Source: Cyanobacteriota bacterium
GTDB taxonomy: Bacteria; Cyanobacteriota; Cyanobacteriia; CACIAM-69d
Reading direction: 5' to 3'
Assembly: GCA_022402445.1 (NCBI GenBank)
Contig: JAKRSF010000003.1
Span: 186,001 to 250,000, forward strand
DNA length: 64,000 nt
Shown piece after piece: positions 19,815 through 24,840 of the stretch. How positions within the stretch are numbered: position 1 is the first letter of the stretch; every line of letters begins with the position of its first letter. The notes below the pieces were generated by a model. It had not been told where the DNA came from, did not search any database, and saw only the letters and a program-made list of their open reading frames with translations. Made by a program: the position numbers and the translations under genes.

Positions 19815-20316
19815 GGGGCTGGGGACAAGATAAAGAATTCAAGTGAGAGGGAGGAGGCATCCCAGGTCCGGTGATTACCCCTAGGACGATGGGCTTGCGG
19901 CGGACCTAGCCACCTTGGCCCGAATTCAAGGTGGCCCCTGGGGGGGTAGCGTCTGATCCCAATTGTAGACCGATGCCGTGGCCCCCCTGCGGTGATCCCC
20001 GTCCCCCACGCCCCCAGCGGCGGCCGTTCCCTACGGCCAACACCCCCAATGGATCCACCCTGGGGATCGCTGCGATCGCAGCATCATCCCTTTCCACCGG
20101 GGGCATCGCGAAAAATAAGAATTCCGCAACAAAACTTTGCAGATTCCCCCCAAGGGCAGCCGTCCGCCCCCCTCCCCAAGGTCTGGATTGGTTCCCCGGC
20201 TGGGCCGCCCCAGTCGCCAGAATTCCGGCGGGGATCATCGGGGGCGTTCCCCAAGGCAATTCCCTTGCCATAATGGGAGCTTTGGCATCCTGAGCAAGAC
20301 GCTGAGCAGACTTCCC
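19815..20316. other. Intergenic region upstream of the ribonucleotide reductase gene
   Basis: A 500-bp divergent region. I looked for a cobalamin riboswitch, since the next gene needs adenosylcobalamin, but found no B12-box-like sequence. A small hairpin (GGCAA-TTCCC-TTGCC, about 20253-20267) precedes a CATAAT promoter-like hexamer near 20270. A TTG-started extension of the reductase frame from 20137 is not credible. Confidence 0.4.
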
Positions 20317-23300
20317 ATGGTTCAAGAGTTGAATCGCCCCCAGGCTTCGCAAGCTTTTCCCGACAATGCCCCCACGGCCTATCCCGTGTTCTACCGGACC
20401 TACAGCCGCCGGACTCCCCAGGGCGATCGCGAAACCTGGCCCCAGGTCTGTGCGCGATCGCTCGCGGGCCTCGTGAAACTGGGCAAGCTAACGGATCCCG
20501 AAGCGGATCTGATCCGGCGGATGCAGGACAAGCTCTGGGCCTTGCCGTCCGGGCGCTGGCTGTGGGTGGGGGGCACCCCCTGGCTCGAAAATTCCGCCAA
20601 CTTCTCAGGGGCCTACAACTGCACCAGCACCAATGTCACCGACTGGCGCGCCTTTGGTCTGATGATGGATCTGGCGATGATGGGCTGCGGCACCGGAGCG
20701 GTCCTGGAGCCGAAATATATCGAACAGCTCCCCGCCATCCGTAATCCCCTCACGGTCGAGGCGCGCGGCGTCCAGGGGGAAGTGCCCGCCGGTCAGCGTC
20801 AGGAGAACACCACGGTTGCGATCGCGGGCGATCGCGTAGAAATCATCGTGGGGGACAGCCGCCAGGGGTGGGTGTACTCCTACCAAACCCTCCTGGAACT
20901 GTCGAGCGATGAACGCTTCGGCGGTCGCCCCGTCCATGTCACCGTCGATGTGAGCAATATTCGCCCCACCGGCGAACCCCTCAAGGGCTTTGGGGGCGTC
21001 GCCAACCCGGTCAAGGTGCCGGAAATGTACCACAAACTGACCAAGGTGCTCAATGGGGCTGTGGGCCGCAAACTGACCTCCGTTGAGTGCTGCCTTTTGA
21101 TCGACGAAGCGGCGGTAGTGGTCGTTGCCGGCAACGTCCGCCGCTGTCTGCCGGAAGACGCCCTGGTTCATACCGATCGCGGCCTCGTCCCCATTCAGCA
21201 GGTCCAGGTGGGCGATCGCGTGCAAACGCCCCTCGGCTTCCGGCGCGTGGTCGATAAATTCGATCAGGGCATCCAAGACGTGTACGACGTGGAAACCAAC
21301 GCCACCGCACCGCGCGCCACGCTCAACCACCGTATGGCCGTTCTCACCGACGCCAAGGGTGGCCTGACCTGGAAACGCATCGGAGACCTGCAACCGGGCG
21401 ATCGCCTGCTCCACAGCACCCAAATTCTCCCCGGCTCCGTCACCACCCTGCCCCAGGACTTCACGGACCAACGCCCGCCCCAAAGCCGCACCGCCAAACC
21501 CCTAACCATTCCTAGCCTGAGCGCAGACGTGGCCTGGTTAATCGGCTTCACCCATGGGGATGGAAACGTGACCGTCGGTCGCAACAAGCACGACAAACCC
21601 TACGGCTACGTGATGTGGGCCACCAATGCTCGCCAGCCTGAACTGGCCCAACGGCTTCAGGACAAGCTGGATCGCGCCCTAGCCCTCTTTGGTCAAACGG
21701 TTCGCCACAGCAAAGTTCGCGGCGAAAATACCCTTCGTTCCATCTGCTGCTCCATCCGCCTAGCGGAATACTTCCACCGCCACATCAAACAACCCCAGCA
21801 ACCGATCACGATTCCCCCCTTCATCCTTCAGGGATCGGCAGAGGTGCGAGCTGCCTATCTGGCGGGCGTCATGGACAGTGACGGTGCAGCCCACAATCGT
21901 CCGCCCCACCTGGTGACCACGGTTTACCCAAATTTCGCTCGCCAGGTGGCAGCGGTCCTCTCCAGCCTGGGATTGGCGGGCCGCATGTCTCTCACGCGCC
22001 CTGAAGTCAGCCATTGGCGAGTCAAATACAATGTCCTGCTGCCCGCCTTCAAGCGGGAATACAACGCCCTAATCGCGCCCCATTCCGTCAAGGGAGCCCT
22101 GCGGGAGGGCCTAAAATCCCATGGCTTTACCCTACCGGGCGAGATGATGCGGGAAACCTATACCTACAGCGAGATGCGGGGTATGGGATTTGAGGGAAGT
22201 CGCCAGGTGGCCTCGAACTATGAGCGCTATCGGGCCGAGTCCGAGGTGAACCTAGACATTCCCGTGACAGTCAAAGGGCTAGGAAGCTATGACTCGGTGC
22301 AGACCTACGACATCGAGGTAGAAGAAGCCCACTGTTTCTATTGCGATGGCTACCTAACCCACAATTCGGCGGGGATGCGTCAGGGCACTTCGGAGGATGC
22401 AGCCTTTGCGATGGCGAAGGAAAACCTTTGGCAGCAGGACGATCAGGGCAATTGGCGCATTGATCCGGATCGCGACTCACTTAGGATGGCGAACCATACG
22501 CGGGTCTTCCATCACAAACCCACCGAAGAGGAGTGTGTCGCCGCCGTTCGCAAGCAGTTCTATTCGGGCGAGGGGGCGATTCAGTGGGCTGGGGAGGCGA
22601 TCGCGCGGTCCAATGCCGATATCGTGCCGCCGGAGCGCAAGGCGGAATTCATTGCGGCCTATGGGGCGGGGCAGGGGCGAGCGTGGCTCAAGGCAGCGGA
22701 TCCATCCCAGGGCGATCGCGAGTTGGATCATCGCCTCGGTCGCTATGGCCTGAATCCATGCGGTGAAATCTTAGGTGAGGATTTTCACTGTGTTTCAGGT
22801 GAGACGATGATGATAACACGTTCAGGGATGGCCCCAATTGCATCCCTGATCGGTCAAGTGGTGGAAGTTTGGAACGGTCGGCGCTGGAGTGCGGTCACGC
22901 CCATCCAAACGGGCCGCGATCGCGCCCTCTTCCGGGTTCGTTTTGGCGATGGAACCTACCTTGACGTCACCGAAGGCCATCGATTCTTTGTCAAAGATCG
23001 CTTTGGCAAAGCCTATGGGGAACGGACCACCGCCGAATTGATCGAACAGTTGCCCAGCTTGAAATATGCGTTGCACACTGAGCCATTCCAAATTGACTAT
23101 CAGGATGGAAAGGCCATCGATCCCATTTGGGCCTATACCCTTGGGCAATTGGTGGGAGACGGCTCCCTTTGCCAGTCCCATGGCAAACCTCAACTCCAAC
23201 TGCGGCTGTATGGTGCTGAAACCTACCGGAAAGAACTCGCCATTGCGGGCCGCACCTCTGGCAAGCCCAAGTTCTACGCGGAAAATCCCGAGACCCCATG

Positions 23301-24840
23301 CTTGCTCTATACCGGGTTTCAGAATGAATTTGATCCCGACCAGGTGCGGGCTTTAAAGCAAACGGCGGAACCTTTTGAGGCGATCGCCACCTGGAATCGC
23401 GAGGCTATTCTGCATTTTATTGCGGGCTTGATTGATTCCGATGGTTCATCCGTGGCTTCCGGTGGAGTCCGTCTTTACCTATCAGACTACGATCGCGCCT
23501 ACCGCGTTTATCTGCTGCTGCTGAAATGTGGAATTCGCAGTTCCGTCAATTTGCTGGCAACGGCGGGAACGCGGACAAATTTGGGTGTTCGTCGCAAGGA
23601 TCTGTGGTACCTCCAGATTACGGATGCTCGAGCTATCCCCTGTCAACGGGTGGATACCAGCAATGGCCATGCGCCAAAGTCCAAAGGGAAATGGCAAGTG
23701 ATTCGGGCGATCGAACCCATCGAGGGGCGCTACGACACCTTCTGTTTCAATGAACCGGAATTCCACAAGGGCGTCTTTGGCGGTACCCTAACCGGTCAGT
23801 GCAACTTAGGTGAGATTCATCTCAATCAAATCAATCCCACGGACCGGACTGCCCAGCGGGATGCGTTCATGGCGGGGGGGCTGGCGGTGGCGAGCCTGCT
23901 CAATCACCGGTTCGAGGAGGAGCGCTATCGCTTCAGTCGTGAGGTGGATCCGATTGTGGGGGTATCCTTCACGGGGCTGTTTGACTTTTTTGTCCAAGCC
24001 TTTGGGGTGGAGTGGCTGAAATGGTGGGAGGCGGGCCGTCCGGAAACGCCGGAGGGCCTTGGGTTCAAGGCGCAGGAGCGGGACTATCTCACCTTCTGGC
24101 GCGATACGGTCCATGAAACGGTCTGGGAATATTGCGATCGCCACGGCCTGCGCCGCCCCAACCGCTGTACGACGGTGCAGCCGAGTGGCACTAAATCCTT
24201 GCTGACGGGGGCATCGCCCGGTTGGCACCCGCCCAAGGCGGCGCGGTTCATTCGGCGGATTACGTTTCGCAAGAATGATCCGGTGGCCCTGGCCTGTATG
24301 GACTATGGCTACAGCATTGTGCCGTCCCAGTCCGATAAGGATGAGGCCGGTAATTTGCTGACGGATCCGTTTGATGCGCGCTGTACGGAATGGCTGGTGG
24401 AAATTCCGGTGGCGGTGTCCTGGGCGGATCTGCCCGGTGCGGATACGATCGCGATCGAGCATTTTTCAGCCCTGGCGCAGTTTGATTTCTACATGCAGGT
24501 GCAGCGGCATTACACGACCCACAACACCAGCGCGACCATTGAACTGCGGGAGGATGAAATCGAGGCGCTGGGTCAGGCAATCCATGGGGCGATCGCCAAT
24601 GACGACGGCTACATCAGTGCGGCGCTGCTGGCGCGGTTTGATGCGCCGTTCCCGCGGCTGCCGTTCGAGAAGATCGATCGCGGCACCTATGATCGCCTGC
24701 ACCGGGAGATGCTGGAGCGGCGGCGGGTGGAGGATTTCACCAGCGCCCTGAAGCGCTACGATCGCGGTGAAATGGAGGAGGCCGGTCCGGCGGGCTGCGA
24801 TTCGGACAAGTGCCTGCTGCCGGAGGTGCCCCCGGCCTAA
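20317..24840 (+). CDS. nrdJ: Adenosylcobalamin-dependent (class II) ribonucleotide reductase with two inteins
   Basis: Makes deoxyribonucleotides using adenosylcobalamin as radical source. The precursor is 1507 residues; removing inteins of 407 and 337 residues leaves 763, the normal size of monomeric class II enzymes. Exteins are 20317-21144, 22366-22788 and 23800-24840. Visible marks: the YNCTSTNV cysteine, the active-site NPCGE cysteine, TTVQPSGTKSLLTGASPG, and a C-terminal Cys pair (GCDSDKCLLPE) that should re-reduce the site. The ATG at 20317 starts the recognisable N-terminus. No obvious cobalamin riboswitch is seen. Splicing is required for activity. Confidence 0.93.
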   Translation: MVQELNRPQASQAFPDNAPTAYPVFYRTYSRRTPQGDRETWPQVCARSLAGLVKLGKLTDPEADLIRRMQDKLWALPSGRWLWVGGTPWLENSANFSGAYNCTSTNVTDWRAFGLMMDLAMMGCGTGAVLEPKYIEQLPAIRNPLTVEARGVQGEVPAGQRQENTTVAIAGDRVEIIVGDSRQGWVYSYQTLLELSSDERFGGRPVHVTVDVSNIRPTGEPLKGFGGVANPVKVPEMYHKLTKVLNGAVGRKLTSVECCLLIDEAAVVVVAGNVRRCLPEDALVHTDRGLVPIQQVQVGDRVQTPLGFRRVVDKFDQGIQDVYDVETNATAPRATLNHRMAVLTDAKGGLTWKRIGDLQPGDRLLHSTQILPGSVTTLPQDFTDQRPPQSRTAKPLTIPSLSADVAWLIGFTHGDGNVTVGRNKHDKPYGYVMWATNARQPELAQRLQDKLDRALALFGQTVRHSKVRGENTLRSICCSIRLAEYFHRHIKQPQQPITIPPFILQGSAEVRAAYLAGVMDSDGAAHNRPPHLVTTVYPNFARQVAAVLSSLGLAGRMSLTRPEVSHWRVKYNVLLPAFKREYNALIAPHSVKGALREGLKSHGFTLPGEMMRETYTYSEMRGMGFEGSRQVASNYERYRAESEVNLDIPVTVKGLGSYDSVQTYDIEVEEAHCFYCDGYLTHNSAGMRQGTSEDAAFAMAKENLWQQDDQGNWRIDPDRDSLRMANHTRVFHHKPTEEECVAAVRKQFYSGEGAIQWAGEAIARSNADIVPPERKAEFIAAYGAGQGRAWLKAADPSQGDRELDHRLGRYGLNPCGEILGEDFHCVSGETMMITRSGMAPIASLIGQVVEVWNGRRWSAVTPIQTGRDRALFRVRFGDGTYLDVTEGHRFFVKDRFGKAYGERTTAELIEQLPSLKYALHTEPFQIDYQDGKAIDPIWAYTLGQLVGDGSLCQSHGKPQLQLRLYGAETYRKELAIAGRTSGKPKFYAENPETPCLLYTGFQNEFDPDQVRALKQTAEPFEAIATWNREAILHFIAGLIDSDGSSVASGGVRLYLSDYDRAYRVYLLLLKCGIRSSVNLLATAGTRTNLGVRRKDLWYLQITDARAIPCQRVDTSNGHAPKSKGKWQVIRAIEPIEGRYDTFCFNEPEFHKGVFGGTLTGQCNLGEIHLNQINPTDRTAQRDAFMAGGLAVASLLNHRFEEERYRFSREVDPIVGVSFTGLFDFFVQAFGVEWLKWWEAGRPETPEGLGFKAQERDYLTFWRDTVHETVWEYCDRHGLRRPNRCTTVQPSGTKSLLTGASPGWHPPKAARFIRRITFRKNDPVALACMDYGYSIVPSQSDKDEAGNLLTDPFDARCTEWLVEIPVAVSWADLPGADTIAIEHFSALAQFDFYMQVQRHYTTHNTSATIELREDEIEALGQAIHGAIANDDGYISAALLARFDAPFPRLPFEKIDRGTYDRLHREMLERRRVEDFTSALKRYDRGEMEEAGPAGCDSDKCLLPEVPPA
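21145..22365 (+). mobile_element. Intein 1 in nrdJ, with LAGLIDADG homing endonuclease
   Basis: In-frame insertion of 407 codons between GNVRR and SAGMRQ of the reductase. It starts with Cys (CLPEDALVHTDRG, splicing block A), has a TxxH-like TLNH block B, and ends in His-Asn (GYLTHN) with Ser as the first downstream residue: a canonical splice junction. Two LAGLIDADG-type helices (LIGFTHGDG and LAGVMDSDG) show a complete homing endonuclease. No stop or frameshift, so it looks active. Confidence 0.93.
22789..23799 (+). mobile_element. Intein 2 in nrdJ, ending in Gly-Gln, with LAGLIDADG endonuclease
   Basis: In-frame insertion of 337 codons between GEDFH and CNLGE. It begins CVSGETMMITRSG (block A), has TEGH as block B, and carries two LAGLIDADG-type helices (LGQLVGDGS and IAGLIDSDG). 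The end is GGTLTGQ followed by Cys, so the terminal residue is Gln rather than Asn and the penultimate is Gly rather than His. Gln-ending inteins are known in reductase genes and can splice. The downstream Cys is also a conserved residue of the enzyme. Confidence 0.9.

Follow-up and report, generated by a model that had tools for sequence, protein, structure and literature searches.

Host gene and its cysteines

We analysed a stretch of 64,000 nucleotides (the window) from a Cyanobacteriota bacterium (assembly GCA_022402445.1, contig JAKRSF010000003.1, positions 186,001 to 250,000). Its + strand, on which all features given below are located, carries nrdJ (20317..24840) with two inteins inside. 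The open reading frame had 1507 codons, from the ATG at 20317 to 24840, and stayed open through three NrdJ pieces and two inserts; the longest mechanical frame around it was 20137-24840. The product matched the NCBIfam RTPR model (TIGR02505, adenosylcobalamin-dependent ribonucleoside-triphosphate reductase) with 712.7 bits, in three stretches. The joined exteins, 763 aa after splicing provided that the start is the ATG at 20317, matched the L. leichmannii enzyme (PDB 1L1L) with E=5e-35 (phmmer). Sequence features of the monomeric class II reductases (NrdJm) were recognized, namely the RTPR match, the Cys408/E410 and Cys419 equivalents and the C-terminal cysteine pair. By its sequence, nrdJ encodes a monomeric class II reductase, predicted to be cobalamin-dependent like its family.

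For the L. leichmannii reductase, we take Cys408 to be the thiyl radical carrier, and Cys119 and Cys419 to form the active-site disulfide. In the phmmer alignment, GLNPCGEI-LGEDFHCNLGEI was aligned on GTNPCGEISLANGEPCNLFEV of the 1L1L chain, from residue 404, so that the cysteine of NPC corresponds to residue 408 and the cysteine following intein 2 (+1) to residue 419. The putative thiyl-radical cysteine (in NPCGE) is encoded at 22759..22761 and the +1 cysteine, the nucleophile at the start of the C-extein and a member of the redox pair, at 23800..23802. An earlier note on this DNA had proposed that the cysteine after GEDFH probably belongs to the redox pair, and had named a contrary alignment as what would refute it; the one run against 1L1L bears the proposal out. 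The probable partner in the pair is Cys102 (20620..20622, Cys119 equivalent), part of an N-C motif invariant in 18 NrdJ. Its assignment is weaker than that of the +1 cysteine: the distance of the motif from PSGR is similar to that in 1L1L, and HMMER left the residue itself unaligned. A C-terminal CDSDKC cysteine pair (24796..24813) would re-reduce the active site. A radical cysteine and a disulfide-forming cysteine pair are found in reductases in general (PMC4390871).

Two inteins in nrdJ

Intein 1 (21145..22365, 407 aa) lies between AGNVRR and SAGMRQG. It has the features of class 1 inteins: Cys1, a His-Asn end and Ser+1, in frame and at a site uninterrupted in relatives. Pfam Intein_splicing matched it under the model cut-off. 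Relatives with 65-72% identity across residues 1-407 were found in 20 other sampled cyanobacteria, and the end HN/SAGMRQ was present in all 12 loci read.

Intein 2 (22789..23799, 337 aa) lies between GEDFH and CNLGEI. It begins with Cys1 and ends with Gly-Gln (GGT and CAG codons, 23794..23799), followed by Cys+1. The site was unbroken in relatives, with NPCGEI-x-G-xx-F[HF]-CNL, including the +1 Cys, in 30 of 30 fetched uninterrupted genes.

Both inteins had a LAGLIDADG_3 domain (Pfam) and two dodecapeptide motifs with catalytic acidic residues, as in LAGLIDADG homing endonucleases. The motifs were LIGFTHGDGN (21538..21567) and YLAGVMDSDG (21856..21885) in intein 1, recognized by sequence and Pfam. 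In intein 2 they were TLGQLVGDG (23137..23163), its Asp kept in 70 of 72 alleles, and FIAGLIDSDG (23416..23445), recognized by sequence, Pfam and the 72-allele alignment. The earlier note had described two inteins with full LAGLIDADG motifs at conserved enzyme sites, spanning 21145-23799, the second with a Gly-Gln end and a downstream Cys. This description holds: the inserts are in frame, their boundaries are exact, with the span running from the first base of intein 1 to the last base of intein 2, each has two motifs, and Gln337 is followed by Cys. Chance does not account for such an arrangement.

Every one of the 72 intein 2 alleles was inserted before CNL, with a His preceding the intein in 71. 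Cys1, Thr61, His64 (block B), Cys319 (block F position 4) and Gly336 were invariant, and block F His326 was a His in 66/72. All alleles ended with N or Q followed by C, the C-terminal feature of class 1 inteins, and all had Gly in place of the usual penultimate His. This His is not obligatory, working inteins with another residue at this position being known (PMC4031507).

Intein 2 was not listed by the Pfam Intein_splicing model, and is assigned from its motifs, homologues and predicted fold. A sequence search of solved structures gave nothing for it; a fold search gave a match instead. The AlphaFold2 model (24-sequence alignment, mean pLDDT 84) superposed end to end on full-length inteins that include endonuclease domains and gave the Hint fold; TliVMA was the best of these matches (Z 22.7, rmsd 3.6, 299 residues). 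We claim no geometry for the last stretch, because the last block, which holds the Gln, had a low confidence (mean pLDDT 49). Between the window and a Limnothrix allele (L031), dN/dS was ~0.08-0.12 in both the Hint and the endonuclease parts, values that are approximate because dS was >1 and that agree with those of closer allele pairs (0.03-0.20). Both the splicing and the endonuclease function of intein 2 thus look maintained by purifying selection.

The genome assembly is nearly complete (99.93%), and NrdJ was the sole reductase found in it, the NrdJ protein query matching this one gene only. The PF02867 (barrel) model gave zero matches in the assembly, a result of little weight since the model is nearly blind to this NrdJ. 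Because PF02867 missed a known reductase, other reductases were also sought with the NrdJ protein itself and with the class I small subunit and class III families (PF00268, PF13597), the latter two with zero matches in the assembly. With NrdJ as the sole reductase found, DNA synthesis would depend on the splicing of both inteins, which is presumably essential. The earlier note had considered the enzyme inactive until splicing. We infer the same: in the precursor, intein 2 comes between Cys419 on one side and E410 with the radical cysteine on the other, in a genome where a second reductase was not found.

Other inserts near the intein 2 site

Of the 67 cellular alleles counted, 27 had a further intein, ending with ...HN/CGEI, at the radical cysteine, which lies 10 residues before the intein 2 site. 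In L002, L003, L006, L036 and others, this third intein (...VAHN/CGEI) leaves a 10-residue extein between two inteins. Other loci (L084, L086, L041 and others) had a short intron-like insert, ~250-350 nt in most of them and longer in L032. Its exon ends were TGTGGT / GAAAT, splitting the NPCG/E codons ~24-27 nt upstream of the intein 2 site. An Rfam search of this insert gave no match; its junctions alone suggest that it is group I-like. Elsewhere in the genome of the window, a DnaB helicase gene (L154:341-4135; contig 7, 483340-487134) had two more inteins, both with His-Asn ends. That inteins favour conserved sites is long established (PMC2814812), and the Aquifex NrdB intein sits between two metal ligands (PMC8772380).

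The terminal glutamine

Among the 72 alleles at the FH/CNL site, 22 ended with Gln (CAA/CAG) and 50 with Asn (AAC/AAT), always preceded by Gly. In a quick intein tree, built without the last residue and without bootstrap, all Gln alleles except the viral L101 were in one group (SH-aLRT 97), with L041 as the single Asn member. On the host C-extein tree, which had long branches and poor support, the Gln state was scattered (6 changes versus 2); this is only suggestive of transfer. The Gln end has thus persisted in many cyanobacterial families. A dependence of Gln on Gly at position 332 was ruled out, L041 having Gly332 with Asn and L101 having Asn332 with Gln.

In class I reductase intein relatives from viral contigs, 41 Gln and 28 Asn ends were counted among 69 parsed (11 were unparsed), a ratio that is not a frequency estimate, because the sample consists of the best 80 matches to a query alignment headed by an intein with a Gln end and includes near-duplicates. 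The earlier note had stated that Gln-ended inteins exist but are a minority. The first part stands; the second, perhaps true of inteins as a whole, does not describe this reductase family (22/72 and 41/69).

The Gln could mark a decayed intein that splices poorly and is in the course of being lost, and that the cell can afford since it needs little reductase. The Gln-ended PolII inteins of P. abyssi and M. marisnigri fit such decay, since they splice slowly, and faster with Asn (PMC4031507). The Gln clade, however, is broad, diverse and under strong purifying selection, Gln is common in the related viral inteins, and the Chilo iridescent virus (CIV) reductase intein, which natively ends with Gln, splices less well when Asn takes its place (PMC4031507). 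As NrdJ is also the only reductase found in the genome, we consider decay very unlikely.

L041, from a Microcoleus MAG contig (JAICRN010000511.1, intein at L041:1529-2536), had the intein body of the Gln clade and an Asn end. The 12 bases of this end (CTAACTGGAAAC) were identical to the Asn allele resident in relatives, and the host extein was like that of Microcoleus L071. The simplest reading has a Gln-clade intein entering and displacing the Asn-ended one already present, the crossover falling within the last four codons. With so short a tract, chimeric assembly of the MAG contig would give an identical picture.

Redox state and splicing

The earlier note had suggested that splicing may be tied to the redox state. 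In such redox-gated maturation, oxidation of Cys1, Cys+1 or Cys408 would pause intein 2 splicing and hold the reductase back under oxidative stress. Residues 1 and +1 of intein 2 are both Cys, NrdJ is the sole reductase found, and disulfide switches are known in other inteins, e.g. mycobacterial DnaBi1 (PMC6195587); judging from a title cited in PMC4031507, one was also reported for a Gln-ended PolII intein.

The distribution of cysteines gives this suggestion no support. Cys1 and Cys+1 are generic, being common to all 72 alleles, whether ending with Gln or Asn. Within the intein, Cys1, Cys285 and Cys319 (block F) were present in all 72 alleles, and Cys247 and a cysteine at position 280 with one or two exceptions; the window's intein 2 has Ala at position 280. 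No extra conserved splicing-domain cysteine specific to the Gln alleles was found among the 72, the conserved cysteines of the splicing domain being just the usual ones of catalysis and block F. The cysteines specific to the Gln clade, C128 and C171, are both in the endonuclease part, while host catalysis accounts for the conserved extein cysteines. The sequence is compatible with a C1/C+1 or C1/Cys408 disulfide, but nothing singles out redox gating of intein 2, which we consider highly improbable. We give as little credit to the broader idea that inteins on the catalytic cysteines of a sole reductase, with a rate-tuned terminal Gln, form a redox-sensitive checkpoint in its maturation and so in the supply of DNA precursors.

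As an observation on the Gln clade, C128 and C171 were kept in 21 of the 22 Gln-ended and in one of the 50 Asn-ended alleles.

Distribution and mobility

Relatives of intein 2 were found in 30 of 386 sampled cyanobacterial genomes, with alleles at this site in 24, and further in 67 named genome loci and six viral contigs. NrdJ matches were present in 144 genomes, at least 72 of them uninterrupted in the region searched (counted from the list). Even within the window's own family, one member (L104) had no intein in the region, and another (L002) had intein 2 together with the one at the radical cysteine, and lacked intein 1. Such sporadic presence is the pattern of mobile elements.

Transfer was also supported by sequence comparison. 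Some allele pairs were much more similar at fourfold sites in the intein than in the adjoining C-extein; for L075/L085, identity was 0.87 versus 0.46 (P=2e-12 before correction for many pairs), supporting horizontal transfer within the intein 2 family. In four viral contigs (L098, L099, L100 and L102), a NrdJ-like gene had an Asn-ended intein at this same site. These inteins grouped within the Nostocales alleles, which makes phages a possible route of intein transfer. In another viral contig (L103:4001-4964), the intein copy was broken by an in-frame stop and its end was altered; it is probably a decayed allele or the product of a sequencing error.

Domestication is a different possibility, in which splicing would help NrdJ to fold or to take up its cofactor, a role proposed for the intein of Aquifex NrdB. 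There, R2 contained more iron and was twice as active when its gene carried the intein (PMC8772380). The sporadic presence of the intein, with an intein-free member (L104) in the same family, speaks against such a role, and the intact endonuclease under selection points to a mobile element instead, leaving domestication with next to no probability. The low GC3 of intein 2 (0.585 vs 0.68-0.78) would fit a recent gain by the window's lineage, but the divergence of intein 2 from its nearest allele was no smaller than that of the exteins.

Proposed mechanism and meaning

We are highly confident that nrdJ contains two independent mobile class 1 inteins, predicted to splice themselves out and yield an uninterrupted class II reductase. 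In intein 2, Cys1 would form the N-terminal thioester, and the chain would then pass to Cys+1, which serves in the redox pair once the enzyme is mature. Gln337 would cyclise instead of an Asn, without a penultimate His, and free the intein, after which an S-to-N shift would give a normal peptide bond. The spliced junction would read ...GEDFHCNLGE..., within the predicted junction peptide ...GEILGEDFHCNLGEIHLNQ... Copies of nrdJ that lack the intein would be cut by the LAGLIDADG domain and would receive the intein by copying, the predicted empty target site for intein 2 homing being ...GATTTTCAC TGCAACTTA... The choice of a catalytic site may follow from its invariance in the host gene: such a site would offer a stable DNA target and a ready Cys nucleophile, and would make imprecise loss lethal.

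The inteins of the window are well-formed and belong to a known kind of mobile element. They illustrate how such elements come to occupy catalytic positions in an essential enzyme: the redox cysteine in this gene and, in relatives, the radical cysteine 10 residues off. The alleles also form a natural series, in which homologous inteins share one identical splice junction and end with Gln (22) or Asn (50). With this series, it becomes testable in the native context whether the Gln end is a remnant that splices slowly or has been tuned, and L041 looks like a natural Gln-to-Asn swap.

Comparison with known systems

A cyanobacterial reductase gene with several inteins was reportedly first described for Trichodesmium. 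The Trichodesmium loci L078, L087 and L089 had a homologous intein in the same host gene, at the same FH/CNL site. Their alleles end with Gly-Asn, whereas that of the window ends with Gly-Gln and belongs to a separate clade. Cyanobacterial nrdJ type II inteins are known, e.g. from Trichodesmium and Thermosynechococcus (PMC9403480).

The inteins of class I NrdA/NrdE, found in phages and some cyanobacteria (site SNL/C, end GILTGQ/N), had 27-30% BLAST identity to intein 2 over the full length. They share with it the penultimate Gly, the Gln or Asn end and a +1 residue that is a catalytic reductase cysteine. Their site (SNL/C.EI) is the radical cysteine (E. coli Cys439 context), while that of intein 2 is the class II redox cysteine. 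The CIV RNR intein is similar in its reductase host and native terminal Gln (PMC4031507); it differs in having a viral host, and is likened here by its published description.

The split intein NrdJ-1 (PDB 8UBS) occupies the same active-site stretch, with native exteins NPC/SEI (PMC13123727), and has the same Hint fold as the intein 2 model (Z 13.1). It differs in being split, in its Ser+1, in having no endonuclease (judged from its use as a split intein) and in its position, about ten residues upstream. PI-TliVMA, PI-PfuI and PI-SceI have other host proteins and only ~12-18% sequence identity to intein 2, and share with its predicted model the same fold of a splicing domain with a LAGLIDADG endonuclease (Z 18.6-22.7).
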